A stretch of DNA of 64,000 nt. Source: Comamonas fluminis (lineage in GTDB: Bacteria; Pseudomonadota; Gammaproteobacteria; Burkholderiales; Burkholderiaceae_C). Shown here piece after piece: positions 45,333 through 64,000 of this stretch (positions within the stretch are counted from its first letter, which is position 1; each line of letters begins with the position of its first letter). The notes beneath the pieces are model-generated. The model made no database searches and had not been told where the DNA came from. It saw nothing but the letters and a program-made list of their open reading frames with translations. A program made the position numbers and the translations under genes. The DNA lies in the NCBI RefSeq assembly GCF_019186805.1, contig NZ_CP066783.1:2617501-2681500 (forward strand). The letters are read 5' to 3'.

Positions 45333-46418
45333 ATGACGGCGCCTTCGACTCAAGCCTTCACCCGGCAGCGTCATCAGCTGAAACTGTGGCTGTTTGCACT
45401 GACGGCCGTGCTGCTGCTGTCTCTGACGCTGGCCATTACGCTGGGGCCGGTGCGCATTGGGCCCACTCAAGCATGGCAAATCACCGCGCATGAACTGGCG
45501 CAGCGCCTGGGCATGGAAACCCAGCCTGCCAGCTGGAGCACGGCCCAGTATCAGATTGTCTGGCGCGTTCGCCTGCCGCGTGTGCTGCTGGCGGCCATGA
45601 CTGGCGCCGGCCTTGCCCTGGTGGGTGTAGCCATGCAGGCCATGGTTCGCAACCCGCTGGCTGACCCCTACCTGCTGGGCGTTTCATCGGGAGCATCAGT
45701 GGGCGCCGTCAGTGTGCTGGCCTTTGGCACACTGGCATTTGCGGGGGAACTGGCCTTACCACTGGGCGCTTTTGGCGGCGCACTGGCAGCCTGCACAGCG
45801 GTGTATTTTCTCGCCCATACCAATGGACGATTGCAGGCCTCGCGATTGATTCTGGGTGGCGTCGCCATTGCCTACTGTCTTGGTGGCGTCACCAGCCTGA
45901 TCATTCTGACAGCCAACCAGCGTGAGCTGGCGAACTCCGTGCTGACCTGGACTCTGGGCAGTCTGGCCGGAACCCGCTGGAAAGAGCTGGGGCTGCCTGC
46001 TGCCCTGCTGCTGGCAGGAATTGCGCTGCTGCTGGCGCAGGCGCGTTCGCTCAATGCATTGCTGTCTGGCGAAGAAACTGCAGCCACTCTGGGTGTGGAC
46101 ACCACACGCACCCGGCGCTGGCTGTTTTTGCTCGTCTCGATGGTGACGGGAGTTCTTGTTGCGCTGACAGGCCCCATCGGCTTTGTGGGCCTGATCGTGC
46201 CGCATATCACCCGCATGCTGGTGGGCGCCGAGCACCGGCGGGTACTACCTGTCGCAGCGCTGACAGGTGCCATCTTCCTGGTCTGGGTCGATGTGTTTTC
46301 CCGCATCAGCTTTGCCCCTGCCGAAGTGCCCGTTGGCGTCATCACGTCGCTGCTGGGCGGGCCCTTCTTTGTCTGGATGCTATGCCGCAAGAGCGCCCGG
46401 GAAAGGATCAGCCTGTGA
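45333..46418 (+). CDS. btuC: Cobalamin ABC transporter permease (FecCD/BtuC family)
   Basis: A 361-residue inner-membrane protein with about nine to ten hydrophobic segments. Family blocks: WRVRLPRVLLAAMTGAGLALVGVAMQ, RNPLADPYLLGVSSGASVGAV, and TGPIGFVGLIVPHITRMLVG. It lies behind a cobalamin riboswitch and is coupled to the ATPase gene, so vitamin B12 (or cobinamide) is the expected substrate. About 220 nt of riboswitch leader remain between the aptamer and the ATG. Confidence 0.85.
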   Translation: MTAPSTQAFTRQRHQLKLWLFALTAVLLLSLTLAITLGPVRIGPTQAWQITAHELAQRLGMETQPASWSTAQYQIVWRVRLPRVLLAAMTGAGLALVGVAMQAMVRNPLADPYLLGVSSGASVGAVSVLAFGTLAFAGELALPLGAFGGALAACTAVYFLAHTNGRLQASRLILGGVAIAYCLGGVTSLIILTANQRELANSVLTWTLGSLAGTRWKELGLPAALLLAGIALLLAQARSLNALLSGEETAATLGVDTTRTRRWLFLLVSMVTGVLVALTGPIGFVGLIVPHITRMLVGAEHRRVLPVAALTGAIFLVWVDVFSRISFAPAEVPVGVITSLLGGPFFVWMLCRKSARERISL

Positions 46419-47203
46419 ACGGCCAACACTACTTGCTGGAAGCCCGGCAACTGCACTGGCAAGCTGCAGCCACCCATATCGTCAAAGACATCAGTCTGCA
46501 TATTCAGCGCGGCGAATTGGTCGGCCTGCTGGGGCCCAATGGCAGCGGCAAATCCACCTTGCTGCGCATGATCTACCGCATCCTCAAGCCTTCCAGTGGC
46601 ACGGTCTGCATGCAAGAGCAAGACGTCTGGCAGCGCAGTGCCCGCGACAATGCCCGCGCCATGGCTGTGCTGGCGCAAGAGAACACCGGTGAGTTTGATC
46701 TGCGCGTCTGTGATGTGGTGCTCATGGGGCGCACCCCCCGTCAAAGCGCTTTTTCTCGCGACAGTGAAGAGGACTTGCGCATCGTCACTCAGTCTCTGGC
46801 ACAGGTGCACGCCCAGGCGCTGACCGAGCGCATGTTCTCCACCCTCTCAGGCGGTGAAAAGCAGCGAGTGCTGATGGCCAGAGCACTGGCGCAGCAAGCC
46901 CAATTGCTGGTGCTGGACGAGCCCACCAATCACCTGGATGTACGCCACCAGTTCGAGCTGATGAACCTGATACGCAGCCTGGGCCTGACCACACTGGCTG
47001 CACTGCATGAGCTGCCGCTGGCCGCCCATTACTGCGACCGCCTTTATCTGCTCAAGGATGGCGCGCTGGCTGCACAGGGCACGCCCGCCGAGGTGCTGAC
47101 GCCGCAGATCATTGCCCAGGTCTATGGCGTGCAGGCGCAGGTGCGCATCAACGAGCGCAGCGGCAAGCCTCTGATTGAGTTCATGCCGGACCAATTGCTC
47201 TGA
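46415..47203 (+). CDS. btuD: Cobalamin ABC transporter ATPase (BtuD-like)
   Basis: A 262-residue ABC ATPase: Walker A GPNGSGKST (40-48), signature LSGGEKQRV (about 145-153), Walker B LLVLDEPTNHLD. GTG at 46415 overlaps the btuC stop (GTGA) and has AAGGA upstream; an in-frame ATG at 46382 would lie inside btuC. With BtuC and the binding protein at 49792 it makes a type II importer. Confidence 0.85.
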   Translation: MNGQHYLLEARQLHWQAAATHIVKDISLHIQRGELVGLLGPNGSGKSTLLRMIYRILKPSSGTVCMQEQDVWQRSARDNARAMAVLAQENTGEFDLRVCDVVLMGRTPRQSAFSRDSEEDLRIVTQSLAQVHAQALTERMFSTLSGGEKQRVLMARALAQQAQLLVLDEPTNHLDVRHQFELMNLIRSLGLTTLAALHELPLAAHYCDRLYLLKDGALAAQGTPAEVLTPQIIAQVYGVQAQVRINERSGKPLIEFMPDQLL

Positions 47204-47263
47204 ATAACGCTTGAAAGCGCCCAAGGACTGCTAAACTCTTGCGGCGCCTTGATGGCGCTTCGT

Positions 47264-47506
47264 TTCGGAAGGTGCTTGCTCTTAAAACAGCGAGTGAAAC
47301 GGGAACAAGGTCTGATCTCTCGATCAGGAAGCCTTGGCTGCCCCCGCAACGGTAAGCAGGAACACACAGCTCACGCAAGTCGCAGCAGCGCTTGCAGCCA
47401 CTGGAGATGATTCGGCCCTCGCTACGCGAGGTTTCGAGTTTTTCGGGAAGGCGAGATGTGCATTCAGCAATGAATGGCCTGTGAGCCCGGAGACCGGCCT
47501 GCCGAT
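47264..47506 (+). ncRNA. Cobalamin riboswitch upstream of the TonB-dependent receptor gene
   Basis: GGTGC at 47271, AACGGGAACAAGGT, the complementary GCCTTGG, CCCCCGCAACGGTAAGC near 47341-47357, and the ending GAGCCCGGAGACCGGCCTGCCG. A P1 of CGGAAGG with CCTGCCG is possible. It should control the receptor, the binding protein and probably the chelatase genes behind them. Confidence 0.9.
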
Positions 47507-47650
47507 GACTCAACTCCGCCCCATGGGCGGTTTTCACGACAACTGTCTGCGGGGTGCGGATAGCGGCCATTTGGTGGATGCGGTCATGCCTGTCAAAGGC
47601 AGACAGTTCTGCGGCACAGCTATCCCTTCAGGCAGTTTCGACCTCCTGAT

Positions 47651-49792
47651 ATGTGCTTTCATCCACAAAACTCTGTTTCTCTTCACTCCTCCCTTCACTC
47701 CAAGCATCAGTTGCGCCATCTTGGCAGCACCGCGTTAAAACTGCTGTTGCTCTGCCCGACAGTCAGCATGGCCCAGCAGGCTCTGCCCGAAGTCACGGTG
47801 CAGGAAAAACGCCAGCCTGCCCATGAGCTGCAGACCAGCCAGCCAGCCACCTCTGCCTCGCATGTGAACGTACCCGTGCTGGACCTGCCTGCCAGCGTCA
47901 GTGGCGTGTCGTCGCAGCAAATCGAAGAGCGCGCCGATTACAGCGTCTCTGACGCTGTCACCCGCACCGTGGGCCTGAGCGCTTCGGGCGCACCGGGCAA
48001 TGGCGGCCTGTCTTTTTCCAGCCGTGGCTTCAATGGTGTGAACTCCATTGGCGTTGCCGAGGACGGCATTACCCTGGGAGTGGCAGCAGGCACCATCAAC
48101 TACCCCGGCGACAGCTGGGGCTATGAACGCATAGAAGTGCTGCGTGGCCCCGCATCGCTGATGTATGGCAGCGGCACCATGGGCGCCACGTTGAATGCCA
48201 TTCGCAAACAGCCCAGCCGGGAGCGTTCCTCCGAAGTGCTGCTAGGCGCTGGCGGCAACGGCAAGGTCTACAGCGGCATTGGCACCACCGGTGCGCTGGG
48301 CGAGACCGTGAGCTACCGCATCGACGCCTATGGTGAACGCAGCGACGGAGAACGAGACTTGGGCAAATCCAGCAGCGGCAAGCTGATGAGCGCATTGCGC
48401 TGGACGCCGCGCAGCGACGTGACCGTGGACCTGAGTGCCGACATCAGCCGCCAAAAGCCCGAGCGCTACTTTGGCAGCCCCGTGGTTGACGGACAGATCG
48501 TCAAGGAACTGCGCCACAAGAATTACAACGTACTGGATGCCATTGACGAGTTCAAGGACCAGCGCTTTCGCGCCAAGGCGCAATGGCAGGCCAGCGATGC
48601 ATTGACGCTGCGCAACGAAATCTATCACTTCAAGTCTGACCGCCACTGGAGAAATATCGAGGGCTATGACTACAACCCCTCCACAGCGCAGGTGGACCGC
48701 TACGACTATCTTGAAATCAGCCACGATGTGCAGCAGACGGGCAACCGCATGGGTCTGGACCTCAAGGCCGGAGCACATCAGATTGCCATGGGCTGGGATA
48801 TTTCAAACGCCAAGTTCAGCAATATGAGCAACTCCCCCTACACCGGGGAGTCCACTGTCTCTGCCTTCCAGCCACAAAATGGCTACTGGGACAGCCCAGA
48901 CGCCTTCCTGCCACGCATGAGCTCCAGCATTCGCCAGAACGCGCTGTACCTGGAAGATGCCTGGAAAATCAACGAGCAATGGCTGCTGATGGCTGGTCTG
49001 CGCCGCGACTGGTATGACTTCTCGCGCACAGATATCCAGACTGGCGCCGGTTTCGACAAGCCTCTGAACGGCACTTCCTGGCGCCTCGGGCTGACCCACA
49101 AATTCAGCGCCCTCAGCAGCGCCTATGTACAGACCAGCACCGGTCATGACCCTGTGACCAGCCTGTTGTCCATTGCCCAGTCGCAATCGGGCTTCAGCCT
49201 CAGCAAAGGCCGCCAGGTCGAGGTCGGCTACAAGCAGCAGTTGGCCGATGGCCGTGGCGAATGGACAGTGGCGGCCTACCGCATCGTCAAGGATGACATC
49301 ATCACCCGCGACCCGGAGCGCCCTTCTCTGTCTGTTCAGGGTGGCCAGCAGTCTTCCCGGGGGCTGGAGCTGACAGGTCTTGTTCACGCCAGCAAGGCGC
49401 TGCGCTTTGAAGGCAATCTGTCCTATGTCGATGCGCAGTTTGACCGCCTGCTCGAAGGCAGCAAGGGCATCAACCGCGCTGGTAACCGCCCCAGCAATGT
49501 GCCGCGCGTCACCGCCAACCTCTGGGGCCACTACCGCACCGGCCCATGGCAAGCGTCGCTGGGTGTGCGCTATGTTGGCGATCGCTATGCAGACAATGCC
49601 AACACCACCCGCCTGCCTTCCTATGTGGTCACAGACGCTGCACTGAGCTGGGATGTCAACCCGCGCACCACGCTGCGTCTGGTGGGGCGCAACCTGACCA
49701 ACCGCATCTACGCCACCGCAGCCCAAAGCAGCACCCAGTGGCTGCTGGGTCGCGGGCGCAGCGTGGAGCTTTCGGCGCTGATGCGCTTCTGA
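47651..49792 (+). CDS. TonB-dependent outer-membrane receptor, probable cobalamin uptake
   Basis: A 713-residue protein: signal peptide ending SMAQQ, plug domain (about 60-190; VLDLPASVSGVSSQQIEERADYSVSDAV, YERIEVLRGPASLMYGSGTMGATLN) and a beta-barrel ending in Phe (SVELSALMRF). The sequence type is that of siderophore receptors rather than E. coli BtuB, but the riboswitch and neighbours point to a corrinoid. Substrate is inference from context. Confidence 0.8.
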   Translation: MCFHPQNSVSLHSSLHSKHQLRHLGSTALKLLLLCPTVSMAQQALPEVTVQEKRQPAHELQTSQPATSASHVNVPVLDLPASVSGVSSQQIEERADYSVSDAVTRTVGLSASGAPGNGGLSFSSRGFNGVNSIGVAEDGITLGVAAGTINYPGDSWGYERIEVLRGPASLMYGSGTMGATLNAIRKQPSRERSSEVLLGAGGNGKVYSGIGTTGALGETVSYRIDAYGERSDGERDLGKSSSGKLMSALRWTPRSDVTVDLSADISRQKPERYFGSPVVDGQIVKELRHKNYNVLDAIDEFKDQRFRAKAQWQASDALTLRNEIYHFKSDRHWRNIEGYDYNPSTAQVDRYDYLEISHDVQQTGNRMGLDLKAGAHQIAMGWDISNAKFSNMSNSPYTGESTVSAFQPQNGYWDSPDAFLPRMSSSIRQNALYLEDAWKINEQWLLMAGLRRDWYDFSRTDIQTGAGFDKPLNGTSWRLGLTHKFSALSSAYVQTSTGHDPVTSLLSIAQSQSGFSLSKGRQVEVGYKQQLADGRGEWTVAAYRIVKDDIITRDPERPSLSVQGGQQSSRGLELTGLVHASKALRFEGNLSYVDAQFDRLLEGSKGINRAGNRPSNVPRVTANLWGHYRTGPWQASLGVRYVGDRYADNANTTRLPSYVVTDAALSWDVNPRTTLRLVGRNLTNRIYATAAQSSTQWLLGRGRSVELSALMRF

Positions 49793-50859
49793 TGGCATTG
49801 AGGCCTGTTGCCATGCAAGCCATTTGCTTGAATCGTTGCAGCGCCTCAGTCCTGCTGGCAGCCTCGCTGCTGGCAGGCTGCGGTGAATCCTCTGCCCCAC
49901 AGGCAAGCCCACCTCAGGCGCGCCAGCACCAGCCGCCGCTGGAGCTGTCTGTCTGCGGCCAGACCGTGCGCTACGACAAGGTGCCGCAGCGCGCCGTCAC
50001 GCACGATGTGAACATCACCGAGATGTTTCTCTACCTGGGTCTGGGTCAGCGGCTGGTGGGCTACTCGGGCATCCCTTCCAGCAAGGAAATCAGCCCGCAG
50101 TTGCGCCCCTGGCTGCAGAGCCTTCCCAACCTCTCTTCACAGGGAATGAACCTGGAAGTCTTGCTGGGTGCAGAGGCCGACTTCGTCTTCGGCGGCTGGA
50201 GCTACGGCTTCCGCCCCGGCGCAGTCACCCCTGAAAGGCTGGCCAGCCACGGTATTGCGTCCTATGTGCTGTCCGAATCCTGCATTCGCGTGCAAAAGCG
50301 CGAACGTGTGGCGCTCGACGACGGGCTGCAGGATCTGGAAAACATCAGCCGCATCTTCGCCGTCAGCTCACAAGCCCAGCCGCGCATCGACAAGCTGCGC
50401 GCATCTCAGGCCCTGCTGCGCCAGCAAATGCAGGGCAATCCGGTACGACCCCGCGTCTTCGTCTATGACAGCGGCCAGGAAATCCCTGTCACCGTCGGCC
50501 ACTTCGGCATGCCGCAGGCCATGCTGGATGAAGCGGGTGCGAGCAATATCTTTGCCGACCTGAACCAGAACTGGCAGCGCGGCAACTGGGAAGACGTGAT
50601 CGAGCGCGACCCAGAGTGGATTGTGATCGTCGATTACGGCCAGCCAGATGCGCAAGGCAAGATCGACTTCTTGCTACAGAAAAAAGAGCTGGAAGCGGTT
50701 TCTGCTATTAAGAATCGGCGCTTTTTTGTCATGAGCTATGCCGAGGCCACGCCTGGCCCGCGCAATATCGAAGCCACCCAGCGCCTGGCTGCCGCCTTGC
50801 ACCCCGATCGCAAGATCACGGTCCAGCCCGTGGAGCTTTCTGCAGGAGAGCTGCCATGA
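49792..50859 (+). CDS. Cobalamin/metal-chelate ABC substrate-binding lipoprotein (BtuF-like)
   Basis: A 355-residue protein with a lipoprotein signal (SVLLAASLLAGC) and a class III periplasmic binding fold (PQRAVTHDVNITEMFLYLGLGQRLVGYSG, DWI/VDYGQPDA late block). The start overlaps the receptor stop (TGATG) at 49792; ATG at 49813 is an alternative. No permease gene lies beside it, so it probably serves the btuCD pair 2.6 kb upstream under the other riboswitch. Confidence 0.8.
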   Translation: MALRPVAMQAICLNRCSASVLLAASLLAGCGESSAPQASPPQARQHQPPLELSVCGQTVRYDKVPQRAVTHDVNITEMFLYLGLGQRLVGYSGIPSSKEISPQLRPWLQSLPNLSSQGMNLEVLLGAEADFVFGGWSYGFRPGAVTPERLASHGIASYVLSESCIRVQKRERVALDDGLQDLENISRIFAVSSQAQPRIDKLRASQALLRQQMQGNPVRPRVFVYDSGQEIPVTVGHFGMPQAMLDEAGASNIFADLNQNWQRGNWEDVIERDPEWIVIVDYGQPDAQGKIDFLLQKKELEAVSAIKNRRFFVMSYAEATPGPRNIEATQRLAAALHPDRKITVQPVELSAGELP

Positions 50860-51680
50860 ATGCGCCCTCTCCCAGCCATCTGCTTGCGGACGCCCGGACA
50901 CCAGCGGCCGCATCGCTCTCCATCATCTTGCTCAGCCGGGGCGGTGCCTACACCGCGGGCATGACAGAGTTGAACGAACTGGCGTCAAGGCTGCAAACGG
51001 CCATGGACGCCGCTGGCAAGTCTGTGCAACTCGTCACTGCCGCTTATGTGGACCGCGCCCAGCCTACGCTGATGGAGGCGCTGGACCTGTGCGCCAATGC
51101 GCAGACCATCCTGATCCTGCCCGTGATGGTGCCCGATGAAGCATCGCTGCGCCGCTGGCTGCACAAGCTCATCATGCGCTGGCGGGCTGGTCAGCAATCC
51201 GCACAGCAGCCCATGCCGCACATCGTATTTGGCCAGCCGTTGCTACAGTTGCAGGGCCTGACAGAATTGCTGACCCGCACCGTCGATGACGCACTGCGCC
51301 AGCCCGATGTACCCGAGGTGCTGGGCGATGACCCGTGGGAGCACGACCCCAAGGGCTGGTCGCAGGTGCCAGACCACCAGCACCATGTGCTGTGGTGCGT
51401 GGGTCCGCGCTGCGCGGCCAAGGGGGCGCTGCAAATGTGGCCAGCGCTGACGCGCGCGATACGCGAAACCCCAGCCCTCAAAAACAGCGTACAGCCGCTG
51501 CAAACCGGCTGCCAGTTCCCCTGCAACCATGGGCCGCTGATGATCGTCTATCCGGACGGCGTCTGGTACGGCCCCATGAATGCCGAAAGCATCGCCCCCG
51601 TGCTGACGCGCCATGTGCAAGACCGCGAGGTGGATGAAGCTCTCCACGTACACGGCCCGCGCTGCCTGCAACCCAACTGA
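50856..51680 (+). CDS. CbiX-like chelatase domain fused to a thioredoxin-like 2Fe-2S ferredoxin
   Basis: A 274-residue protein. Residues about 20-145 are CbiX-like (SIILLSRGGAYTAGMTELNELASRL, AYVDRAQPTLMEAL, ILILPVMVPDEASLRRWL). Residues about 175-265 are a thioredoxin-fold ferredoxin (LWCVGPRC at about 179-186, TGCQFPCNHGPLMIVYPDGVWYG). It is coupled to the binding-protein gene by ATGA. Likely part of cobalt insertion or tetrapyrrole handling before the CobN complex; whether the CbiX part keeps its chelating histidines is uncertain. Confidence 0.7.
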   Translation: MNAPSPSHLLADARTPAAASLSIILLSRGGAYTAGMTELNELASRLQTAMDAAGKSVQLVTAAYVDRAQPTLMEALDLCANAQTILILPVMVPDEASLRRWLHKLIMRWRAGQQSAQQPMPHIVFGQPLLQLQGLTELLTRTVDDALRQPDVPEVLGDDPWEHDPKGWSQVPDHQHHVLWCVGPRCAAKGALQMWPALTRAIRETPALKNSVQPLQTGCQFPCNHGPLMIVYPDGVWYGPMNAESIAPVLTRHVQDREVDEALHVHGPRCLQPN

Positions 51681-51710
51681 TTTCACACGTTCCAACCCGG
51701 AGATAGCACC

Positions 51711-52757
51711 ATGCAAACCACCAAGATCCCCGCCACCATCGTCACCGGATTTCTGGGCAGCGGCAAAACCACACTGATGCGCCACATTCTGGAGCAGGCC
51801 AAGGGCCTGCGTGTGGCCGTCATCGTCAATGAGTTTGGCGAGCTGGGCATTGATGGCGAAATCCTCAAAACCTGCGCCATTGGCTGCGCGGAAGAAGGTG
51901 GCGCCGACGGACAGATCTATGAGCTGGCCAACGGCTGCATGTGCTGCACCGTGCAGGAAGAGTTCTTCCCCGTGATGAAGGCCCTGGCCGAACGCCGCGC
52001 CGATATTGATGTGCTGCTGATTGAAACCAGCGGCCTCGCCCTGCCCAAGCCGCTGGTACAGGCCTTTCAGTGGCCCGATATTGCCAATGTGTTCACCGTG
52101 GATTCAGTGGTCACCGTGGTGGATACACCCGCCGCCGCCGCTGGCCAGTTTGCCCATGACCCGCATGCCGTCGATGAGCAGCGCCAGGCCGATCCCAACC
52201 TGGACCACGACGCCAGCCTGCACGAGCTGTTTGAAGACCAGCTCTCTGCGGCCGACCTGGTGGTGCTGTCCAAGGCCGATCTGGTCACGCCCGAGCAGCT
52301 AGCCCAAGTACGCGCCCTTGTGGCCGAAGAAGTGCCCGCCAGCGTGAAGATGATCGAAGCCGTGCAAGGCCAGGTGCCGCTGAATGTGCTGCTGGGCCAG
52401 CACCGCGCGGCTGAAGTCAGCATCAACGACAAGCACAGCCACCACGACCACGACGAAGACCATGACCACGATGCCTTCGATTCGCTGCACATCGACCTGG
52501 GCGCGGTGGACCGCGACCGCCTGATGCAGACGCTGCAAGGCATCGTCGAGCAGCACGCCGTGCTGCGCGTCAAAGGTTTTGCAGCACTGCCGGGCAAAAA
52601 GATGCGCCTGCTGGTGCAAGGCGTGGGCCGCCGCTTTGATGCCTACTTTGACCGCGCCTGGGCCGATGGCGAGACCGCTGCCACGCGCCTGGTCTTCATC
52701 GGCAAGCAACTGGATGCCGCTGTGCTGCAGCAGGCATTGAAGACCGCAGAAGTCTAA
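51711..52757 (+). CDS. cobW: CobW-type GTPase metallochaperone
   Basis: A 348-residue COG0523 protein. Walker A GFLGSGKT (13-20), the metal motif GCMCC (75-79), ESS/ETSG segment and a His/Asp-rich stretch at about 240-255 (HSHHDHDEDHDHD), then the C-terminal CobW domain. It probably delivers cobalt to the CobN chelatase, which is encoded next. Confidence 0.9.
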   Translation: MQTTKIPATIVTGFLGSGKTTLMRHILEQAKGLRVAVIVNEFGELGIDGEILKTCAIGCAEEGGADGQIYELANGCMCCTVQEEFFPVMKALAERRADIDVLLIETSGLALPKPLVQAFQWPDIANVFTVDSVVTVVDTPAAAAGQFAHDPHAVDEQRQADPNLDHDASLHELFEDQLSAADLVVLSKADLVTPEQLAQVRALVAEEVPASVKMIEAVQGQVPLNVLLGQHRAAEVSINDKHSHHDHDEDHDHDAFDSLHIDLGAVDRDRLMQTLQGIVEQHAVLRVKGFAALPGKKMRLLVQGVGRRFDAYFDRAWADGETAATRLVFIGKQLDAAVLQQALKTAEV

Positions 52758-52821
52758 GTATTTAGTAAAAACCGGCGCTGGCGCACAACTGGCGCGCGCC
52801 ACCAGCTATTGTTTTTGAACC

Positions 52822-55800
52822 ATGCATTTGCTCAGCACCCGCCCCGGTGGCTTTGTCGAAGACGACAGCATCATCACCCGCCTGGACCAGACGCCCGCCG
52901 ACATGGTGGTGCTCAGCTCTGCCGATACCACGCTGTCGCTGCTGGCGGATGCCTACCGCTTGTGGCAGCAAACTGAGCCTGACGCGCCCACGCTGCGGCT
53001 GGCCAACTTACTGCATCTGCGCCAAAGCGCCTCGCTTGATCTGTATATCGGCGAGGTGCTGCAGCATGCCAGGCTGATCATCGTCGATCACCTGGGGGCA
53101 GAGTCCACCTGGCCTTACGGCATAGAGCAATTGCAAAAGCTGGCGCGCCAGCGCAGCCAGCAGCTGGCCATGTTCTCGGGCGACAGCCAAGAGGATCTGG
53201 AGCTGCTGTCCAAAGGCAGCATGCCGGTGGAGCAAAGCCGCGCGCTGTGGCAATACCTGCGCGCGGGGGGGCTGGGTAATGCGCGGGAGTTTTTGCGCAT
53301 GGCGGCGGCCTGGGGCCTCCAACGCGGGCGCGAAGGCGCGCCCGTGCGTGTGCTGCCGCCCGTGGCCGTGCATGTGCCGCAGGGCTGGGCAAAAGACGAC
53401 GCCAGCCACATCCCCGGGCTGGACGATTTGCAAGCCCGCTGGACGCCCGGCGCGCCCGTGGCCATGCTGGTGTTCTACCGATCCCACCTGCTGGCCGCCA
53501 ACACCGAAGCCTTTGACGCCGTGGCCGATGCCCTGCTGGCACAAGGCCTGAACCCGTTGCCACTGGCGCTGGAGTCGCTCAAAGATGCACTGTGCCTGCA
53601 AACCTTGCGCACGCTGTGTGCGGCGCATGATGTGCAAATCATCCTCAACACCACGGCGTTTGCTGCTTTGGGCGAGCACGCCCGCGCCGATGATGCAGCC
53701 GACGCGCTGGCGGGCGATATCCCCGTGCTACAAGTGATTGCCAGCGGCGGCAACCGCGAAGACTGGCTGGCCGACAGCCAGGGCCTGCGACCGCGCGACA
53801 TTGCCATGCAGGTGGTGCTACCCGAGATGGACGGCCGCATCATGACGCGCGCCATGAGCTTTAAAGGCCTGACCCACCGCTGCGATCTAACGCAAACCGA
53901 CGTCATCAGCTACCAGGCCGAGCCAGATCGCGTGCAATGGATTGCCGAGCTGGCCCAGCGTTGGTGCCTGCTGCGCAGCAAACCCGCCGCGCAGAAAAAG
54001 GTGGCGCTGGTACTGGCCAACTACCCCGGCAGCGAGGCGCGCATGGGCAGCGGCGTGGGGCTGGATACACCCGAATCCGTCATCGCCCTGCTGCACCAGT
54101 TGCAGCGTGTTGGTTGGAGCCTGGGCGATGCTGCAGCCCTGCCCGCAACAGGCCTGGCGCTGATGCAGCAGCTGCAACAAGGCATTGCCAACAACCCGCA
54201 CAAATGGGCGCTGCGCCCCGCCAGCCAGGGCTACAGCCTGCAAAACTACCGCCAGCGGCTGGCCCAGTTGCCGGATGGCATGGCGCAGGCGCTGATCACC
54301 CAATGGGGCGAACCCGAGGCCGACCCCATGCTGCGCGACGGCTGGTTCATGATTGCAGGCCTGCAACTGGGTCATGTGTTTGTGGGCATACAACCGGCGC
54401 GTGCGCTGGATGGCCGCAACGACTACGCCAGCTACCACGATGCCGAGCTTGTACCGCCCCATAACTACCTGGCGTTTTACTTCTGGCTGCGCGATGTGTT
54501 TGGCGTGGATGCCATGGTGCATGTGGGCAAGCACGGCAATCTGGAATGGCTGCCGGGCAAGAGCCTGGCGCTGTCGCAACACTGCTGGCCCGACGCCATT
54601 CTCGGCCCCCTGCCCCACGTCTACCCCTTTATCGTCAACGACCCCGGCGAAGGCGCGCAAGCCAAGCGCCGCAGCCAGGCCGTCATCATCGACCACCTGA
54701 TGCCGCCGCTGGCGCGCGCCGAAAACCACGGCCCCATGCAGGAGCTGGAGCGCCTGGTGGACGAATACTACGAAGCCCTGCTGGTAGACCTGCGCCGCGC
54801 CACGCTGCTGCGCCAGCAGATTCTGGACTGCGCCAAGCAGCAAGACTTGCTGCGCGAACTGGGCATTGAGACCGCAAATACGCAGCCCGATGCCGACGAG
54901 CAGTTGCTGGAGCGCATCGACGCCTATCTGTGCGAGCTGAAAGAAACCCAGATTCGCGACGGCCTGCACATCTTTGGCCACTCGCCGCAAGATGGGCTGC
55001 GCGACAGCACCTTGCTATCGCTTGCGCGTTACCCCGGCAGCGGCAGCCGGGAGCTGGGCTTGCTCAATGCGCTGGCAGCCGACCTGCTGTCGGGCACGGA
55101 CTGGAACCCTCTGGATATGGATGCTGCAGCCACTTGGACTGGCCCGCGCCCCGCAGCCCTGCAGCAGCTCAGCGAAGAAGTCTGGCGCCATGGCGGCGAC
55201 ACCCGTGAACGGCTGGAGCTGCTGGCCTTGCAAGTAATTACCGAGCCAGCACTGGCGCAAGACTGGCCTGCTACCCAGCAAGTGCTGATCCGCATCCAGC
55301 AACAAATTGCCCCGGCATTGGACGCCTGCGGCCCGCAAGAGCTGCTGCAGTTCTCACGCGCACTGCAAGGCCGTTTTGTGCCCGCAGGCCCCAGCGGATC
55401 GCCCTCACGCGGGCGCTGCGACACATTGCCTACCGGGCGCAATTTCTACACCGTCGATACGCGTGCCATCCCTACGCAAACCGCATGGGCGCTGGGCCAG
55501 CAATCCGCAACGCGACTGCTGGAGCGCTATCTGCAAGAGCATGGCGAATATCCGCAGGCCATTGGCCTGTCCGTCTGGGGCACGGCCACCATGCGCACGG
55601 GCGGCGACGATATTGCCCAGGCTTTTGCGCTGATAGGCGTGCGCCCCAAATGGGCCGCAGGCAGCCAACGCGTGACGGACTTCGAAGTCATCCCCGCCGT
55701 GGGCCTGCGCCGCCCGCGCGTGGATGTGACGCTGCGCATCAGCGGCTTTTTCCGCGATGCCTTTCCCAACGTGGTGCAGATGTTTGACGCCGCCGTGCGC

Positions 55801-56646
55801 GCCGTAGCCGAGCAGGACGAAGACGCCGAAGACAACCCCATCCGCGCCCGCGTGCTGCGCGACACGCAGGCTGCGCTGGACAAAGGCTTGAGCCCTGATG
55901 CAGCACGCGAGCAAGCGCTGTGGCGAATCTTTGGCGCCCCCACAGGCAGCTACGGCGCCAGCATGCATGAGCTGCTGCGCACCGGCCAGTGGACGGATTC
56001 TGGCGACTTTGCCCGCCACTATCTGCACTGGGGCGCCTATGCCTACGGCCAGCATGCCGACGGCGTACCCGCCCGCACTGCGCTGGAGCAACGCCTGCAG
56101 GCGCTCGACGTGGTGCTACAAAATCAGGATAGCCGCGAGCATGACCTGCTGGACTCCAGCGAGTACTACCAGCACCAGGGTGGCATGGTGGCCGCTGTGC
56201 GCCACCTGGGCGGTGCCGAGCCTGCTGTCTACCACGGCGACCACGGCAATCCGCAGTCAGCCAAAATCCGCTCGCTGGCCGAAGAGATTGGCCGCGTGGT
56301 GCGCGCCCGTGTCACCAACCCCAAGTGGATTGCAGGCGCCATGCGCCACGGCTACAAGGGTGCGTTCGAGATGGCCGCCACGGTGGATTATCTGTTTGGC
56401 TTTGACGCCACCACACAACTGGTTTCCGACACCCATTACCAGCTGGTGACCGAGGCCTACGTGCAAAACGACGAAGTGCGCAACTTCATGCGCCACAACA
56501 ACCCGCAGGCGCTCGGCGATATCGTCTCGCGCCTGCTAGAAGCCATTGACCGCGGCATGTGGCAAGAGCCCGGTGATCTGCACCAGAGCTTGCTGACCCA
56601 TATGCTTGCGCAAGAAGAATTCATGGAAGGGCAAGTCTCGCAATGA
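52822..56646 (+). CDS. cobN: Cobaltochelatase large subunit CobN
   Basis: A 1274-residue CobN/Mg-chelatase H family protein, normal length for CobN. Blocks seen: ANYPGSEARMGSGVGLDTPESV, VGKHGNLEWLPGKSLALS, GHSPQDGLRDS and EIGRVVRARVTNPKWIAGAMRHGYKGA. It inserts Co2+ into hydrogenobyrinate a,c-diamide together with two AAA/VWA subunits. The gene is followed by the ChlI/ChlD gene with ATGA overlap. Confidence 0.95.
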   Translation: MHLLSTRPGGFVEDDSIITRLDQTPADMVVLSSADTTLSLLADAYRLWQQTEPDAPTLRLANLLHLRQSASLDLYIGEVLQHARLIIVDHLGAESTWPYGIEQLQKLARQRSQQLAMFSGDSQEDLELLSKGSMPVEQSRALWQYLRAGGLGNAREFLRMAAAWGLQRGREGAPVRVLPPVAVHVPQGWAKDDASHIPGLDDLQARWTPGAPVAMLVFYRSHLLAANTEAFDAVADALLAQGLNPLPLALESLKDALCLQTLRTLCAAHDVQIILNTTAFAALGEHARADDAADALAGDIPVLQVIASGGNREDWLADSQGLRPRDIAMQVVLPEMDGRIMTRAMSFKGLTHRCDLTQTDVISYQAEPDRVQWIAELAQRWCLLRSKPAAQKKVALVLANYPGSEARMGSGVGLDTPESVIALLHQLQRVGWSLGDAAALPATGLALMQQLQQGIANNPHKWALRPASQGYSLQNYRQRLAQLPDGMAQALITQWGEPEADPMLRDGWFMIAGLQLGHVFVGIQPARALDGRNDYASYHDAELVPPHNYLAFYFWLRDVFGVDAMVHVGKHGNLEWLPGKSLALSQHCWPDAILGPLPHVYPFIVNDPGEGAQAKRRSQAVIIDHLMPPLARAENHGPMQELERLVDEYYEALLVDLRRATLLRQQILDCAKQQDLLRELGIETANTQPDADEQLLERIDAYLCELKETQIRDGLHIFGHSPQDGLRDSTLLSLARYPGSGSRELGLLNALAADLLSGTDWNPLDMDAAATWTGPRPAALQQLSEEVWRHGGDTRERLELLALQVITEPALAQDWPATQQVLIRIQQQIAPALDACGPQELLQFSRALQGRFVPAGPSGSPSRGRCDTLPTGRNFYTVDTRAIPTQTAWALGQQSATRLLERYLQEHGEYPQAIGLSVWGTATMRTGGDDIAQAFALIGVRPKWAAGSQRVTDFEVIPAVGLRRPRVDVTLRISGFFRDAFPNVVQMFDAAVRAVAEQDEDAEDNPIRARVLRDTQAALDKGLSPDAAREQALWRIFGAPTGSYGASMHELLRTGQWTDSGDFARHYLHWGAYAYGQHADGVPARTALEQRLQALDVVLQNQDSREHDLLDSSEYYQHQGGMVAAVRHLGGAEPAVYHGDHGNPQSAKIRSLAEEIGRVVRARVTNPKWIAGAMRHGYKGAFEMAATVDYLFGFDATTQLVSDTHYQLVTEAYVQNDEVRNFMRHNNPQALGDIVSRLLEAIDRGMWQEPGDLHQSLLTHMLAQEEFMEGQVSQ

Positions 56647-57830
56647 ACGCCAACACCGCCATGCCGCCCGTCTTTCCGCTGTCAGCTATTGATGGCCAGC
56701 CCGCCCTGGTACAGGCCTTGCTGCTGGCCGCTATCGAGCCCCTGCTGGGCGGCGTGCTCATTCAAGGCCCGCGCGGCACGGCCAAATCCACCGCCGCACG
56801 CGCACTGGCCGATGTGCTGGCACCCGCGCCCTTTGTCAGCCTGCCGCTGGGTGCATCCATCGAGCATGTGATGGGCAGCCTGGATCTGTCCAAGGCACTC
56901 GCAAGTCATGAAGTCGCCTTCGCCCCCGGCCTGATTGCTAAGGCACATGAGGGCGTGCTCTATGTCGACGAAATCAATCTGCTGCCAGACGCCATCGTCG
57001 ATGTGCTATTGGACGTAGCAGCTTCCGGCATCAACCACATTGAGCGCGACGGCATATCGCACAGCCATGCGGCGCGCTTTGTGCTGATAGGCACCATGAA
57101 CCCCGAAGAAGGCATGCTGCGCCCGCAATTGCTGGACCGCCTGGGCCTGTGCGTACAACTAAGCAATGCGCAAGACCCGCAGCTGCGCAGCCGCATTGTC
57201 AAAGCACGGCTGCAGTTTGATCTGAACCCGCAAGGCTTTGTGCAAGCCCATGCGGCCCAGCAGCAGGAAATCCGCACACGTCTGCAGCAAGCCCGCGCCC
57301 GCAGCCGGGACGCCACGCAACTGCCCTGGAGCGATGCGGTGCATGAGGCCGTGGCCCAGCAATGCATCGCCGCCCAGGTCGATGGCCTGCGCGCCGACCT
57401 GGTCATGCTGCGCGCCGCCCGCGCCCTGGCAGCCTGGCAAAACAGCCCCACCATTACGCCAGCGCATGTGACTGAGGTTGCGCCGCTGGTGCTGCAGCAC
57501 CGCTCGGCGGAACCAAGGCAGCCCGCCCCATCCTCGCCAGCCACCAAGCCCGCCCCCTCTTCCAAGCCTCCATCCCAGCCAGACTTCCATCCTTCTGAAG
57601 CGAACTCTGCAAGCCAGCGCAAGCACTTGGACCCGCCTGCCAACCAGTCGTCAGCGCCTGCTGCACCGCCGCCTTCGCAGCAAAACCTGAACCAGCCGCC
57701 ACCTGGCTGGGGTCAGGCGCAGCCCGTCAGCACCACCAGCTTTGATGCCAGCCAGGCCGACGCCATGGCGCAGGCAGCGATGGAAGCGCTTGCCGCAAAA
57801 AAAGCCCGGGCCCCCGGTCGCAGCAATTAG
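56643..57830 (+). CDS. Chelatase AAA+ subunit (ChlI-like), zero-frame product
   Basis: A 395-residue product. Residues 1-290 are the Mg-chelatase AAA+ ATPase: Walker A GPRGTAKST (about 43-51), YVDEINLLPDAIVDVLLD (about 107-124), IGTMNPEEGMLRPQLLDRLGL. From 290 the chain is a Pro/Ser/Gln-rich linker. The frame stops at 57828-57830, inside the loop of a large hairpin, shortly after an A7 run. It would serve as the small subunit of the CobN chelatase; no separate small-subunit gene is present nearby. Confidence 0.85.
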   Translation: MNANTAMPPVFPLSAIDGQPALVQALLLAAIEPLLGGVLIQGPRGTAKSTAARALADVLAPAPFVSLPLGASIEHVMGSLDLSKALASHEVAFAPGLIAKAHEGVLYVDEINLLPDAIVDVLLDVAASGINHIERDGISHSHAARFVLIGTMNPEEGMLRPQLLDRLGLCVQLSNAQDPQLRSRIVKARLQFDLNPQGFVQAHAAQQQEIRTRLQQARARSRDATQLPWSDAVHEAVAQQCIAAQVDGLRADLVMLRAARALAAWQNSPTITPAHVTEVAPLVLQHRSAEPRQPAPSSPATKPAPSSKPPSQPDFHPSEANSASQRKHLDPPANQSSAPAAPPPSQQNLNQPPPGWGQAQPVSTTSFDASQADAMAQAAMEALAAKKARAPGRSN

Positions 57831-59674: not shown

Positions 59675-60442
59675 TCAGCAGAAGTGCTGAGAGCAAGCGT
59701 AGAAATGGGGATTACTCATATCTGGCTTGCCATAGCCCAGCACCTCGCCATCCAGCGTGCGGATCTGCCCTCCCGCTGCCGCCAGAACGGCATGGCCTGC
59801 CGCAATATCCCACTCCATGGTGCGGCCCAGGCGGGGATAGATATCCGCTTCACCTTCAGCGACCAGACAGATCTTGAGCGATGAGCCCGCACTTTTGAGC
59901 GAGCGCACTGAACGCCCCTGCAAGAAATTCTCCAACGCCTGTGCATCGCCATGAGAGCGACTGGCCACCACATCCAGCCCCTCCTGCGGAATGCTACGGC
60001 ATTCGATGGGCTGGCGTGTGCCCTTGACCTCAAGCCATGCGCCCTGCCCTTGCGCACCTGCATACATACGGTCAAGGGCGGGAGCAAACACCACACCAAG
60101 CACTGGCACGCCGTGCTCGATCAAAGCAATATTGACGGTAAATTCGCCGTTGCGCTGAATGAATTCCTTGGTTCCATCCAGAGGATCGACCAGCCAGAAG
60201 CGCTGCCCCATTTCGGGCACGTACCCTGCAGCGGCCGCCTCTTCGGAAACCGCTGGAATCTGCGGCCACAGGGCTTTCAATCGCTCCAGAATCCATCGCT
60301 CAGCCTTCTCGTCCGCTTCGGTCACAGGTGATGCATCCTGCTTGCCGCGCACCTCGAAGTCGGAGCCATAGATCTCCATGATCACTGCACCCGCCTCACG
60401 GGTAATGGCCATGACGTCTTCCAGCACAACGCTCTGATTCAC
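59675..60442 (-). CDS. cysQ: 3'(2'),5'-bisphosphate nucleotidase CysQ
   Basis: A 255-residue inositol-monophosphatase-fold enzyme. Metal-binding motifs: SEE (66-68), WLVDPLDGTKEF (83-94) and MEWDIAAGHAVL near 213. It removes 3'-phosphoadenosine 5'-phosphate produced in sulfate reduction. It is divergent from the cysD/cysNC genes, with a shared 120-nt promoter region, which supports the sulfur role. Confidence 0.9.
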   Translation of the reverse strand: MNQSVVLEDVMAITREAGAVIMEIYGSDFEVRGKQDASPVTEADEKAERWILERLKALWPQIPAVSEEAAAAGYVPEMGQRFWLVDPLDGTKEFIQRNGEFTVNIALIEHGVPVLGVVFAPALDRMYAGAQGQGAWLEVKGTRQPIECRSIPQEGLDVVASRSHGDAQALENFLQGRSVRSLKSAGSSLKICLVAEGEADIYPRLGRTMEWDIAAGHAVLAAAGGQIRTLDGEVLGYGKPDMSNPHFYACSQHFC

Positions 60443-60565
60443 AAAAATCTCCTCTATTTTTCTTGATGTGGTCCGTTTGGTCTATGCACCATTCGGAGGA
60501 CAGGTGGACAGTAAATGCACTCAGTCATTCGCAAATCAGCGAGTGAATGTTTAACAGGAGTGCGC

Positions 60566-62479
60566 ATGACTGTGAGCAAGAAACTTGGTATCCCGCAAAT
60601 CAACGAGCAGCGGATTCAAGCCGTGAAATTGCGGCTGCAAGGACAGACCCTCAAGCAAATTGCGCAAGCCACGGGACTGTCTGCACCGACCATCATTTCG
60701 GCCCACAAGGCCTGGCTGGAAGGCGGCTGGACTGCCGTGCCTGTTCGCGAACGTGGGCGCAAACCCGGAGAAGGCCGCACCCTGTCTGCCATGCAGGAGC
60801 AGGACATCTATGTGCAACTGGTAAGCTCACAGCCTGCGGATCATGGGCTTGACTTTCTGCTCTGGGAGCTGGAAGCCATGCAGCAACTGATCGCTCAACG
60901 CCAGCAACTGGAGTTGCCCGAGCGCACCAACGCCCAGTACCTGCAGCGCTGGAACCTCAATGCAGACCGCCCCATCAAGCGCATGCAGCAGGCGGCCAGC
61001 TCCGTCAAGCGCTGGTATGCCAGCACCTACCTGGACATCTGCGAACAGGCCAAGAAAGAGAACGCCAGCATTGTCTGGATTGATGACTTCGGCGCGCACA
61101 ACAACTGCCCCGGCCGCCTGCGCCACGGCATATTGCGCGCCGTCAACAATCGGGGAAAGGTGCTGTGGCAGCCATACGAAGGAAGTCTGCGCGCCACGCA
61201 TCTGGAAGATTTCTTTGACCGTCTGCAGCGCTCAACCGAATGCAAGATCTTTGCACTGCTGCCCGCCATGCAGTGGCAGCGTGCCGCCACTTTTTCTTCT
61301 CTTTCCGGTGATCGCTGCGAGCGCCTGCGCCTGTTTCACCTGCCCGCCGCCACCGAGATGCTGCACCAGTCCAACGAGCTGGCAAGCAGCATTCAGGAAA
61401 GCATCCAGAGCAAGGCACCTGCCCCCAAAGCCATCCCCAGACAAACCCCTAAGCCACAGATTCTCGACCCTATGGCGAGCATGGCTCAGCAAATTATTAA
61501 ACATCAATTCGCGCAAAAGATTGATGGAACAGACTCCTACAGTTCGCAGCACCCAAGACAAAAAACCAAGGAGAAATCAGTGCTGCTGACTCATCTGCAA
61601 AGGCTGGAAGCTGAAAGCATTCAGGCCATGCGTGAAGTGGTGGCGGAGGCCGAAAACCCCGTCATGCTCTATTCCATCGGCAAGGACAGTGCAGTCATGC
61701 TGCATCTGGCAATGAAGGCGTTTTACCCCGCCAAGCCCCCGTTTCCCCTGCTGCATGTGGACACGACCTGGAAGTTCAAGGAAATGTATCGCTTTCGTGA
61801 CCAGATGGCCGCGAAACTGGGCATGGATCTGCTGGTCCACATCAACCCCGAAGGCCTGGAGATGGGAATCAGCCCCTTCAAGCACGGCTCGCAGATTCAC
61901 ACCGATGTGATGAAGACCGAGGGCTTGAAACAGGCCCTGGACAAATACGGCTTCGATGCAGCTTTTGGCGGCGCACGTCGCGATGAAGAAAAGTCTCGCG
62001 CCAAAGAGCGCATCTTCTCCTTCCGCTCCGACCAGCATCGCTGGGACCCCAAGAACCAGCGCCCCGAGCTCTGGCACCTCTACAACACCCGCAAGAACAA
62101 GGGGGAGTCGATTCGCGTGTTTCCTCTGTCCAACTGGACCGAGCTGGACATCTGGCAATACATCTATCTGGAAAACATCCCCATTGTTCCGCTCTATTTT
62201 TCCGCCCCTCGCCCCGTCGTGGAGCGCGACGGAACGCTGCTGATGGTGGATGACGAGCGCATGCCTCTGAAGAACGGCGAAGTTCCCATGATGCGCAACG
62301 TGCGCTTTCGCACCCTGGGCTGCTACCCACTGACAGGCGCTGTGGAGTCTGACGCCAACACGCTGCCCAAGATCATTCAGGAAATGCTGCTGACACGCAC
62401 TTCAGAAAGACAGGGCCGGATGATCGACCACGACTCGGCCGCATCCATGGAAAAGAAGAAGCAAGAGGGGTATTTCTGA
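60566..62479 (+). CDS. cysD: IS630-transposase-like domain in one frame with sulfate adenylyltransferase CysD
   Basis: One open frame of 637 codons. Residues 1-338 resemble an IS630 transposase: HTH at [35 protein letters not shown], and a core [14 protein letters not shown] ... [17 protein letters not shown], with a degenerate DDE pattern. Residues 339-637 are a full-length CysD ([17 protein letters not shown]-loop, [35 protein letters not shown]). CAGGAG precedes the ATG at 60566. No stop separates the parts, but GTG at 61580 has its own AAGGAG six bases upstream. Thus CysD may be made alone, as a fusion, or both. Role of the N-terminal part unknown; DNA binding is plausible. Confidence 0.8.
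61580..62479 (+). CDS. cysD: Independent CysD product from internal start
   Basis: GTG at 61580 with AAGGAG at 61568-61573 gives a 299-residue protein beginning [20 protein letters not shown], the normal start and length of CysD (ATP sulfurylase small subunit). The strong internal ribosome site suggests this is the main enzyme form. CysD with CysN makes adenosine 5'-phosphosulfate from sulfate and ATP. Confidence 0.7.
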
Positions 62480-64000
62480 TGTCACATGTCTCCGCACTCA
62501 TTTCCGAAGATATCGAGAAATATCTGAAGGTTCATGAACAGAAAAGCCTGCTGCGCTTCATCACCTGCGGCAGCGTGGATGACGGCAAAAGCACCTTGAT
62601 CGGTCGCCTGCTGTACGAATCCAAGATGCTGTTTGAAGACCAGATGGAAGCCCTGGTCGCAGACTCCAAGAAAGTCGGCACGCAAGGCGGCGAGCTGGAC
62701 TTTGCTCTGCTGGTGGACGGCCTGGCCGCAGAGCGCGAGCAAGGCATCACCATCGACGTGGCCTACCGCTTTTTCTCTACGGACCAGCGCAAATTCATCG
62801 TGGCCGATACGCCCGGCCACGAGCAGTACACCCGCAATATGGTCACCGGTGCATCCACGGCCGATGTGGCCGTGGTCATGATCGATGCCCGCAGAGGTGT
62901 ACTCACGCAATCGAGGCGCCACAGCTATCTGGCTTCGCTGATTGGCATTCGCAAGATCGTGCTGGCAGTCAACAAGATGGACCTGATGGGCTACTCGGAA
63001 AAAGTCTACAACGACATCGTTGCCGACTACCGCGAGTTCGCCAAGAAGATCAACCTGGAAGACATTACCGCCATCCCCATGTCGGCCTTGCGTGGTGACA
63101 ACATCACCGAGCAAAGCGAGCACATGCCCTGGTACCACGGCACGACGCTGATGGGCTATCTGGAAACCGTGGAAATCGACGAAGCCCGTCAGCAAAAGCT
63201 GCCGTTTCGCATGCCGGTGCAGTGGGTCAATCGCCCTAATCTGGATTTCCGTGGCTTCGCCGGCTGCATTGCCAGCGGTCAGATCCATCCCGGTGATTCC
63301 GTTCGCATTCTGCCCAGTGGCCGCGTCACCAAGGTCGCGCGCATTGTGACGCAGGATGGCGATCTGCAGCAGGCCGTGGCTGGCCAGTCCATCACGCTGA
63401 CACTGGCCGATGAAGTCGATTGCAGCCGGGGCGATGTGATTGCCGTTGCGGATGCGCCTGCCGACGTCGCCGATCAGTTCCAGGTCACGCTGATCTGGAT
63501 GCATGAGCAGCCGATGCTGGGCGGCCGCCCCTACCTGATGAAGATGGGCGGGAAGACGATTCCGGTCACCTTCGCCGCGCCCAAATACAAGATCAACGTC
63601 AACACGCTGGAGCACCTGGCTGCCAAGGAACTGGCCCTCAATGAGATCGGTGTCTGCAACCTCTCTACCAGCCAGCCCATCGCCTTTGATGCCTATAAGG
63701 ACAATCGAGAAACTGGCAGCTTCATTCTGATTGACCGCCTGAGCAATGCCACGGTCGGTGCAGGCCTGATCGATTTTTCGCTGCGCCGCTCGCAGAACAT
63801 TCATATGCAGCATGTGAATGTGAACCAGAAAGATCGTGCGGAGCGTCTGGGCCAGAAGCCCGCGCTGCTGTGGTTCACCGGGCTTTCCGGCGCAGGCAAA
63901 TCAACCATCGCCAATTTGCTTGAAACGCAGTTGCATGCACGCGGCAGGCACACCTATTTGCTGGACGGAGACAACGTTCGCCACGGCCTGAACCGGGATC
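62479..64000 (+). CDS. cysNC: Bifunctional sulfate adenylyltransferase GTPase / APS kinase CysNC (3' end outside window)
   Basis: The ATG at 62479 overlaps the cysD stop (TGATG). The first 440 residues are CysN, an elongation-factor-type GTPase: [14 protein letters not shown] (P-loop), [12 protein letters not shown] and VNKMD. From about residue 455 an APS kinase domain follows ([34 protein letters not shown]) and is cut by the window end. CysN-CysC fusions are common in proteobacteria. With CysD it makes APS and then PAPS. Confidence 0.95.

Follow-up and report, generated by a model that had tools for sequence, protein, structure and literature searches.

Two kinds of system form the general background to the locus described here, namely sulfate-activation sets of the NodP/NodQ type, in which a second CysD and CysNC set serves a sulfotransferase for sulfation, and tamed transposases turned transcription factors, which have been described mostly in eukaryotes. 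Metabolic enzymes that act on transcription are also on record. PutA and BirA are enzyme-repressors of their own operon, according to PMC6978683, and PAPS reductase A of Tuber melanosporum is a sulfur enzyme that activates transcription, according to PMC4848566. As for ATP sulfurylase itself, the eukaryotic fusions treated in PMC2275785 join it to other enzymes. A fusion of a transposase helix-turn-helix (HTH) region with CysD is in none of the papers listed from the literature searched (which included few subscription papers), in keeping with the original prediction for this DNA, which knew of no described CysD of that kind.

We analysed such a fusion in a stretch of 64,000 nucleotides from Comamonas fluminis (assembly GCF_019186805.1, contig NZ_CP066783.1, positions 2,617,501 to 2,681,500), called the window below. 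At the level of sequence, the fusion, the selection acting on it, a box at its gene start and the link between this box and the HTH are established. Since the HTH and a matching box at the gene start occur together in many distant bacteria, the enzyme probably controls its own production, i.e. we consider a self-regulating (autoregulatory) sulfate-activating enzyme to be the probable reading. The features are as follows, the last one being placed in the coordinates of locus L119.

59675-60442, minus strand: cysQ-like phosphatase (PF00459, profile match), divergent neighbour
60469-60487, no strand assigned: TGGTCCGTTTGGTCTATGC / TGGTCC..GGNCTATGC block in the cysQ/fusion intergenic region, common to Comamonas and Pseudomonas
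60545-60558, plus strand: putative operator GAATGTTTAACAGG, which differs from TAAATGTTTWA at one position and overlaps the ribosome site of the fusion
60566-62479, plus strand: fusion gene, HTH/transposase-like region and CysD, 637 codons (translated frame and domain matches)
60590-60724, plus strand: first helix-turn-helix, residues 9-53 (HTH_29/HTH_23), the best conserved stretch of the N-region
60746-60778, plus strand: RGR..GEGR linker between the two helical subdomains, residues 61-71 (conserved residues in the alignment)
60788-60988, plus strand: second helical (winged-helix-like) subdomain, residues 75-141 (weak HTH_33 match, 22.6 bits vs 25)
61064-61411, plus strand: RNase-H-like (DDE transposase) core with catalytic acids lost, residues 167-282 (profiles, alignment by eye, structure model)
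61412-61579, plus strand: variable linker, residues 283-338 (mostly low model confidence; dN/dS 0.39-0.66 in relatives)
61568-61573, plus strand: internal ribosome site AAGGAG (from the sequence)
61580-62479, plus strand: CysD, 299 codons from the internal GTG at residue 339 (translated frame, profile matches, comparison with 1zun)
62479-64000, plus strand: cysNC (GTPase and APS kinase domains), 637 aa in all, passing the window end
L119:4984-9831, just past the window end, behind cysNC: cassette of DUF1214, sulfotransferase, SnoaL-like, cyclase-like and dehydrogenase genes

As had been noticed from the letters, a single uninterrupted frame joins a 338-residue region resembling IS630 transposases to a complete CysD. 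There is no stop in 60566-62479 (637 residues), so the rare read-through invoked by the original prediction as a source of the fusion is not needed and the choice is between two start codons. An alternative ATG at 60515, also open in this frame, would give 654 codons, but the ATG at 60566 is favoured by the homologues and by its ribosome site AGGAG (60556-60560). The CysD match (residues 344-637) reaches 514 bits with TIGR02039 (cut-off 397; 396.6 before rounding) and the protein scores 562 bits with PRK12563 (curated cut-off 413), while the gene for the CysN partner adjoins the CysD part, cysNC starting at 62479. At the other end, HTH_29 (PF13551, residues 16-79) and HTH_23 (PF13384, residues 15-54) both score above their gathering cut-offs (30.5 vs 28.1 bits and 29.1 vs 24.6 bits, respectively). 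In the linker that follows, G64 and R65 are invariant and R63 and G68 near-invariant over 42 alignment rows, and we take it to resemble the AT-hook-like GRPR linker of Tc1/mariner transposases.

The N-region is clearly akin to IS630 transposases, and its catalytic acids are lost. The IS630 transposase model NF033545 matches residues 16-180 (66.8 and 68.9 bits, E 2e-18 to 5e-19), below its curated cut-off of 100 bits, and the predicted structure of the N-region (pLDDT 89) has the TnsB and Mos1 transposases as top Foldseek matches. The DDE_3 catalytic domain is matched at E 0.11 at best, and the second and third DDE acids are absent when the protein is aligned by eye to the true transposase L003, in agreement with the earlier suspicion of a domesticated transposase without a clean DDE pattern. 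The genome holds a single copy of the N-part. Stand-alone versions sought with the 338-residue query gave 11 candidates of 198-557 aa: three have PF01507, a fourth is a transposase of the IS630 type (27% identity), and the remaining ones are short, lie on short contigs or are flagged as partial (P0004 shifts frame just inside CysD). As for true relatives, two of the five IS630-like loci searched (L011 and L020) have long end repeats reading TTATTGATCCGGCCC..., and those of L020 (980-1012 and 2067-2099) contain AAGTTTTAA, which is faintly like the box of the fusion. A derivation of the box from transposon ends was considered and dropped, these repeats and the AAGTTTTAA in the L020 arm being too weak to claim it.

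How widespread is this architecture? Genome contigs were scanned with an alignment of 16 N-parts, and such an N-part-only query does not favour fusions. Among the matches listed, 71 of 74 N-part loci are fused to CysD in one frame (69 by CysD pattern, plus L059 and L099 by reading); of the others, L060 and L065 run off the contig end and L092 is split. The loci listed belong to Comamonas, Pseudomonas, Halopseudomonas, Aromatoleum, Azohydromonas, Ideonella, Rubrivivax, Achromobacter, Pusillimonas, Methyloversatilis, Marinobacterium, Zobellella, Pokkaliibacter, Granulosicoccaceae and others, i.e. the frame that the original prediction proposed to look for in relatives is carried across beta- and gammaproteobacteria. 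In a large protein collection, searched at lengths of ~350-1115 only, 31 proteins carry the N-part and 29 of these measure 626-640 aa.

The fusion is a minority form. It is present in 10 of 53 genomes of the window organism's genus and, among 199 genomes taken around a central Pseudomonas genome, in that central genome alone. At class level, two of 370 genomes match the full-length model, with three more diverged or shortened forms (L161, L162, L167), and at phylum level there are at least two full-length fusions among the matches listed, 266 of the 397 genomes matching the fusion model nearly always through its CysD part. At family level, where the N-part is matched in 45 of 299 genomes, 12 of the 30 loci examined are fusions and the others, with frames mostly near 350 aa, are IS630-transposase-like in appearance. 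There are also minimal HTH-CysD fusions without the transposase core (L101:3968-5227 and L167:1501-2796). A different ~200-residue N-extension, with no recognisable HTH of the fusion kind, is found in CysDs of ~500 aa (L131, L171, L177 and P0042-P0046), one of them from the window organism's own genus; L131, L171 and L177 match the N-region profile weakly (hhalign probability 37%).

Selection on the fusion was estimated by pairwise Nei-Gojobori dN/dS medians, unusable pairs being dropped and synonymous sites being near saturation in some pairs. For the HTH, these medians are 0.087 in six Comamonas and likewise 0.087 in 19 Pseudomonas, 0.18 in seven Methyloversatilis and kin, 0.10 in five members of the Marinobacterium group and 0.097 in three Azohydromonas; elsewhere they are 0.08-0.49 for the DDE remnant, 0.39-0.66 for the linker and 0.015-0.12 for CysD. 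Of residues 1-338, for which conservation had been proposed as a check, the HTH is strongly constrained (0.087-0.18) and the linker is more relaxed; in Methyloversatilis and Azohydromonas, the DDE remnant has relaxed to much the same extent as the linker. Because of its low dN/dS, and because L101 and L167 keep it and drop the DDE part, the HTH is the most important part outside CysD. With the N-part under selection and no stop between the parts, the fusion is almost certainly real and made.

Whether it is the only product is another matter. The internal GTG (61580-61582) proposed as a separate start for CysD does have a strong ribosome site, AAGGAG at 61568-61573, 6 bases ahead, which is found in all six Comamonas loci. 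Across 74 fused rows (which hold the window twice, as L119 and L159), 46 have an ATG or GTG at most 7 codons from CysD with a ribosome site of at least 4 bases, 15 have TTG only or a poor ribosome site, and 13 have no ATG, GTG or TTG in those 7 codons. An obligate fusion in all 13 was considered and abandoned, since a wider look found an ATG or GTG 8-24 codons upstream in 12 of them, two of which (L072 and L099) have at least 4 ribosome-site bases and ten (including Methyloversatilis) at most 3. It is well supported, on these codons, for L167 only, where there is no ATG or GTG within 40 codons upstream of CysD. The usual internal start is thus, to judge from codons and ribosome sites, lost or displaced in some lineages, and in Comamonas and Pseudomonas it may add plain CysD. 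The motif MQTTP..IDPDT, conserved 12 codons ahead of CysD in L089-L091, L093, L094 and L103, may mark an internal start that has been displaced and whose ribosome site is weak.

The box at the gene start, first spotted by eye as a TAAATGTTT-like sequence recurring upstream of other loci, is the putative operator of the system; in aligned Comamonas and Pseudomonas upstream regions, ATGTTTAACAGGAG next to the start is common to both, with small variations. At up to one mismatch and between -150 and +30, TAAATGTTTWA is found in 19/33 beta, 11/12 gamma, 5/6 Comamonas and 0/24 Pseudomonas loci (dinucleotide shuffles: 0.4%, 4.2%, 0% and 0.1%, respectively), whereas at two mismatches it is present in 20/24 Pseudomonas loci vs 5% of shuffles. 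The top 9-mer, AATGTTTAA, occurs in 14/21 beta training loci, 12/16 gamma test loci and 5/6 Comamonas/Pseudomonas/Aromatoleum test loci, and in 0.3% of the other, mostly coding, windows that these loci contain; the representatives used, 21 for training and 6 for testing, were picked by hand from 33 and 30 loci, and this held-out test is not blind since the box had been seen beforehand over all loci.

The box goes with the HTH rather than with cysD. At two mismatches, it is in 0/12 upstreams of unfused cysD from the same genomes (12 of 20 fetched loci, the cysH loci L155 and L156 having been left out) and in 1/17 non-fused cysD upstreams (L183), a count in which L145-L148, L151 and L152 are all without it. 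In the 110-row set of the CysD tree, 66 of 77 rows with the HTH and 4 of 33 without have the box at up to two mismatches (33/77 and 0/33 at one), the upstream of L163 having been placed in this test by the box sequence itself. Eight HTH loci fetched after the motif had been fixed (L160-L163, L167, L189, L191, L192) gave five passes and three failures at two mismatches. Phylogenetically independent pairs number only four, with a mean of 3.6 going the expected way and none the other, which is not significant (p 0.125).

A further argument comes from the Marinobacterium group and its neighbours, where the box extends over codons at the beginning of the frame, AAA CAT TTA (K-H-L). The second of these residues can be H, D or Y, and the leucine codon is TTA in 11 of 12 loci, against 28 TTA among the 598 leucine codons elsewhere in those 12 frames; this points to a constraint on DNA rather than on protein, although the 11 loci are related and so not independent. 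Dyad symmetry as such is unsupported, because the loci, when scored for palindromes in general, barely exceed their shuffles (4.10 observed, 3.69 shuffled, with 2 of 39 scoring higher than every one of their shuffles). The pattern CAYTAA-N3..5-TTARTG, which was chosen by eye, is enriched, being matched at up to two mismatches in 20/39 (shuffle mean 3.5, top of 20 rounds 7). A sigma-70 promoter scan of 60400-60620 found none.

Exact GAATGTTTAACAGG occurs once in the window genome and so suits a purely local autoregulator. A wider regulon was looked for and rejected, as GAATGTTTAACAGG at up to two mismatches gives 7 sites in this genome vs 9 for the reversed control. The TGGTCCGTTTGGTCTATGC block further upstream is a putative promoter or second operator; as a specific genome-wide site it was discarded (one perfect match, and 238 matches at up to three mismatches vs 137 for the control).

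Split loci offer a natural separation of the two halves. In four of them (L092, L163, L191 and L192), an HTH gene lies directly before a separate cysD, and the box is in each case at the HTH gene (0 to 2 mismatches), the cysD upstream showing 3 or 4 mismatches. Stop codons between the parts, which the original prediction had named as grounds for rejecting its idea, therefore do exist in relatives, but they leave the regulator reading standing and even support it, since the box stays with the HTH gene. Together with the box-HTH link in general and the HTH dN/dS of 0.087-0.18, this makes a DNA-binding regulator a likely role, as had been foreseen. In a tree of the 110 CysD parts, fusions branch off at various depths and unfused forms are nested between them, and the HTH as a trait needs 9 changes on the best tree, the bootstrap of which had not settled, long branches (L099, L131) being unsure. 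Pseudomonas and Aromatoleum CysDs lie within one 30-row clade with Comamonas (support 100/99), and horizontal spread of the fusion is therefore likely on this tree.

The neighbourhood tells what the operon may be for. Of the 74 N-part loci listed, 54 have a cysQ relative on the divergent side and 7 have one downstream of cysNC; the gene after the fusion is cysNC in 69 of the 74, some being cut by contig ends. Past the window end, the genes after cysNC encode a DUF1214 protein, a sulfotransferase (PF13469, E 1e-38), SnoaL-like and polyketide-cyclase-like proteins and a short-chain dehydrogenase. In Pseudomonas protegens, DUF1214, sulfotransferase, cyclase and dehydrogenase genes come in the same order (76%, 69%, 68% and 75% identity), with no SnoaL match at that locus, and of the 81 records searched, 30 have a DUF1214 match, almost all of them from Comamonas and Pseudomonas. 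The window genome also has a second, unfused CysD (a 311-codon frame, 50% identical), which adjoins a CysH-like PF01507 frame and CysN; the second CysN match (G000:C2:3023569-3024879) contains one TAA, which may be an alignment overrun or a broken gene. With this second CysD and the sulfotransferase cassette, the window set is not the assimilatory one here. The locus had been called a good place for a sulfur regulator, of which the regulator part is supported; an assimilatory sulfur regulator is rejected for this genome. In the Comamonas/Pseudomonas branch, the operon most likely makes PAPS for the linked sulfation cassette, as the gene order suggests. Elsewhere in the window, the stretch 45333-57830 holds genes for a FecCD transporter, a periplasmic binding protein, CobW, CobN and ChlI-like proteins and has the look of a cluster for taking up and chelating cobalamin or a metal.

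In eight genomes (G306, G307, G309, G312, G313, G320, G323 and G324, three of which are metagenome bins), the fusion is the only CysD found, the sole other PF01507 protein is CysH (NCBIfam-confirmed), and PF01747 ATP sulfurylase was not found. If these assemblies are complete, the fusion is therefore a working enzyme there, and from these genomes we infer ATP sulfurylase activity for it.

Other explanations have to be set against a self-regulating enzyme. One of them, a recent IS630 insertion before cysD that happens to be in frame and is still a transposase or decaying, draws on the clear IS630 kinship; with one copy in the window genome, lost DDE acids, purifying selection and the same fusion across beta- and gammaproteobacteria, it is refuted by the conserved architecture and can safely be set aside. 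A second rival retains regulation and demotes the long product, i.e. CysD from the internal start would activate sulfate and the joined N-part, made in small amounts, would be only a regulator. The good internal starts in most fused rows (with AAGGAG throughout Comamonas), the displaced ATG or GTG in 12 of the 13 start-less rows (L072 and L099 with a good site) and the very existence of split loci speak for it, but ten of those 12 starts have a poor ribosome site, L167 has none, and the fusion has been kept over large evolutionary distances, so we regard it as unlikely, if the least unlikely of the three.

The remaining rival accepts binding to the box and questions its outcome: the N-region would activate the operon, or would tether the enzyme to DNA, e.g. 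for sulfur chemistry on DNA. The box does lie well ahead of the start in certain loci (at -49 in Azohydromonas and at -76 in Methyloversatilis); in Comamonas and the Marinobacterium group, it overlaps the ribosome site or the first codons. Sulfur chemistry on DNA sits poorly with the neighbours, as cysQ, cysNC and the sulfotransferase point to PAPS, and CysD is not a close, equivalent homologue of DndC, according to PMC10853773. Activation or tethering thus strikes us as rather improbable, somewhat more so than a minor long product. Judged by the position of the box, which overlaps the ribosome site or first codons or, in Azohydromonas, follows a TATAAT-like stretch, repression is likelier than activation.

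The autoregulatory reading can be put together as follows. An IS630-type transposase would have lost catalysis and then been captured as the DNA-binding half of CysD, and its HTH region would bind the AT-rich box at its own gene start, most likely repressing the hth-cysD - cysNC operon. The CysD half, which would pair with CysN, would supply the signal, in the form of bound substrate or a missing CysN partner (candidate sensed states are free CysD lacking CysN, ATP and APS). The internal start of Comamonas and Pseudomonas would add plain CysD, allowing enzyme and regulator to be set in different amounts, and outside these genera it would be weak, displaced or lost; in the window genome, the PAPS made would go to the linked sulfotransferase cassette. 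Taken as a whole, we lean towards a family in which a dead transposase serves as the DNA-binding half of an ATP sulfurylase that responds to its own state by repressing the PAPS operon to which it belongs, the box used for this being conserved from Comamonas to Marinobacterium, and with extra plain enzyme in some lineages.

If this is true, a bacterial transposase has been joined to a central metabolic enzyme, with a likely operator that can be read from sequence, and it would offer a compact system for understanding how the DNA reader of a mobile element becomes a metabolic sensor. Natural variants are on offer, which are fused, split or HTH-only (without the transposase core), and some proteins named plainly CysD, e.g. 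in Diaphorobacter, Comamonas humi and Pseudomonas, would carry an overlooked DNA-binding half.

Compared with known systems, the C-terminal 294 residues are like the CysD of PDB 1zun (from Pseudomonas syringae, with CysN), showing 74% identity to 1zun_A over 207 columns, and the window protein differs by 338 additional N-terminal residues with predicted DNA-binding helices. With IS630 transposases, it shares an HTH pair followed in the same order by an RNase-H-like core, and ~30-38% identity to ~350-aa frames from bacteria of its own family (~28% for IS1471, an IS630 family member among the plasmid matches), but it falls under the family cut-off, has lost the acids, is single copy and has the C-terminal part of the transposase replaced by the linker and CysD. 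As in NodP/NodQ, the window set is a second CysD and CysNC set with a sulfotransferase, the difference being the HTH region fused to CysD. The likeness to T. melanosporum PAPS reductase A lies in a sulfate-pathway enzyme with a second role in transcription, the fungal protein having a C-terminal activating peptide and no transposase-derived HTH. PutA and BirA come close in principle, with a metabolic enzyme and a DNA-binding domain in one chain and, by prediction here, a site at their own operon, although their folds and pathway differ from those of the CysD fusion, the DNA-binding part of which is transposase-derived and its activity predicted. Enzymes that regulate their own genes are thus already known, and what would be new here is the use of a tamed transposase as the DNA-reading part of such an enzyme.
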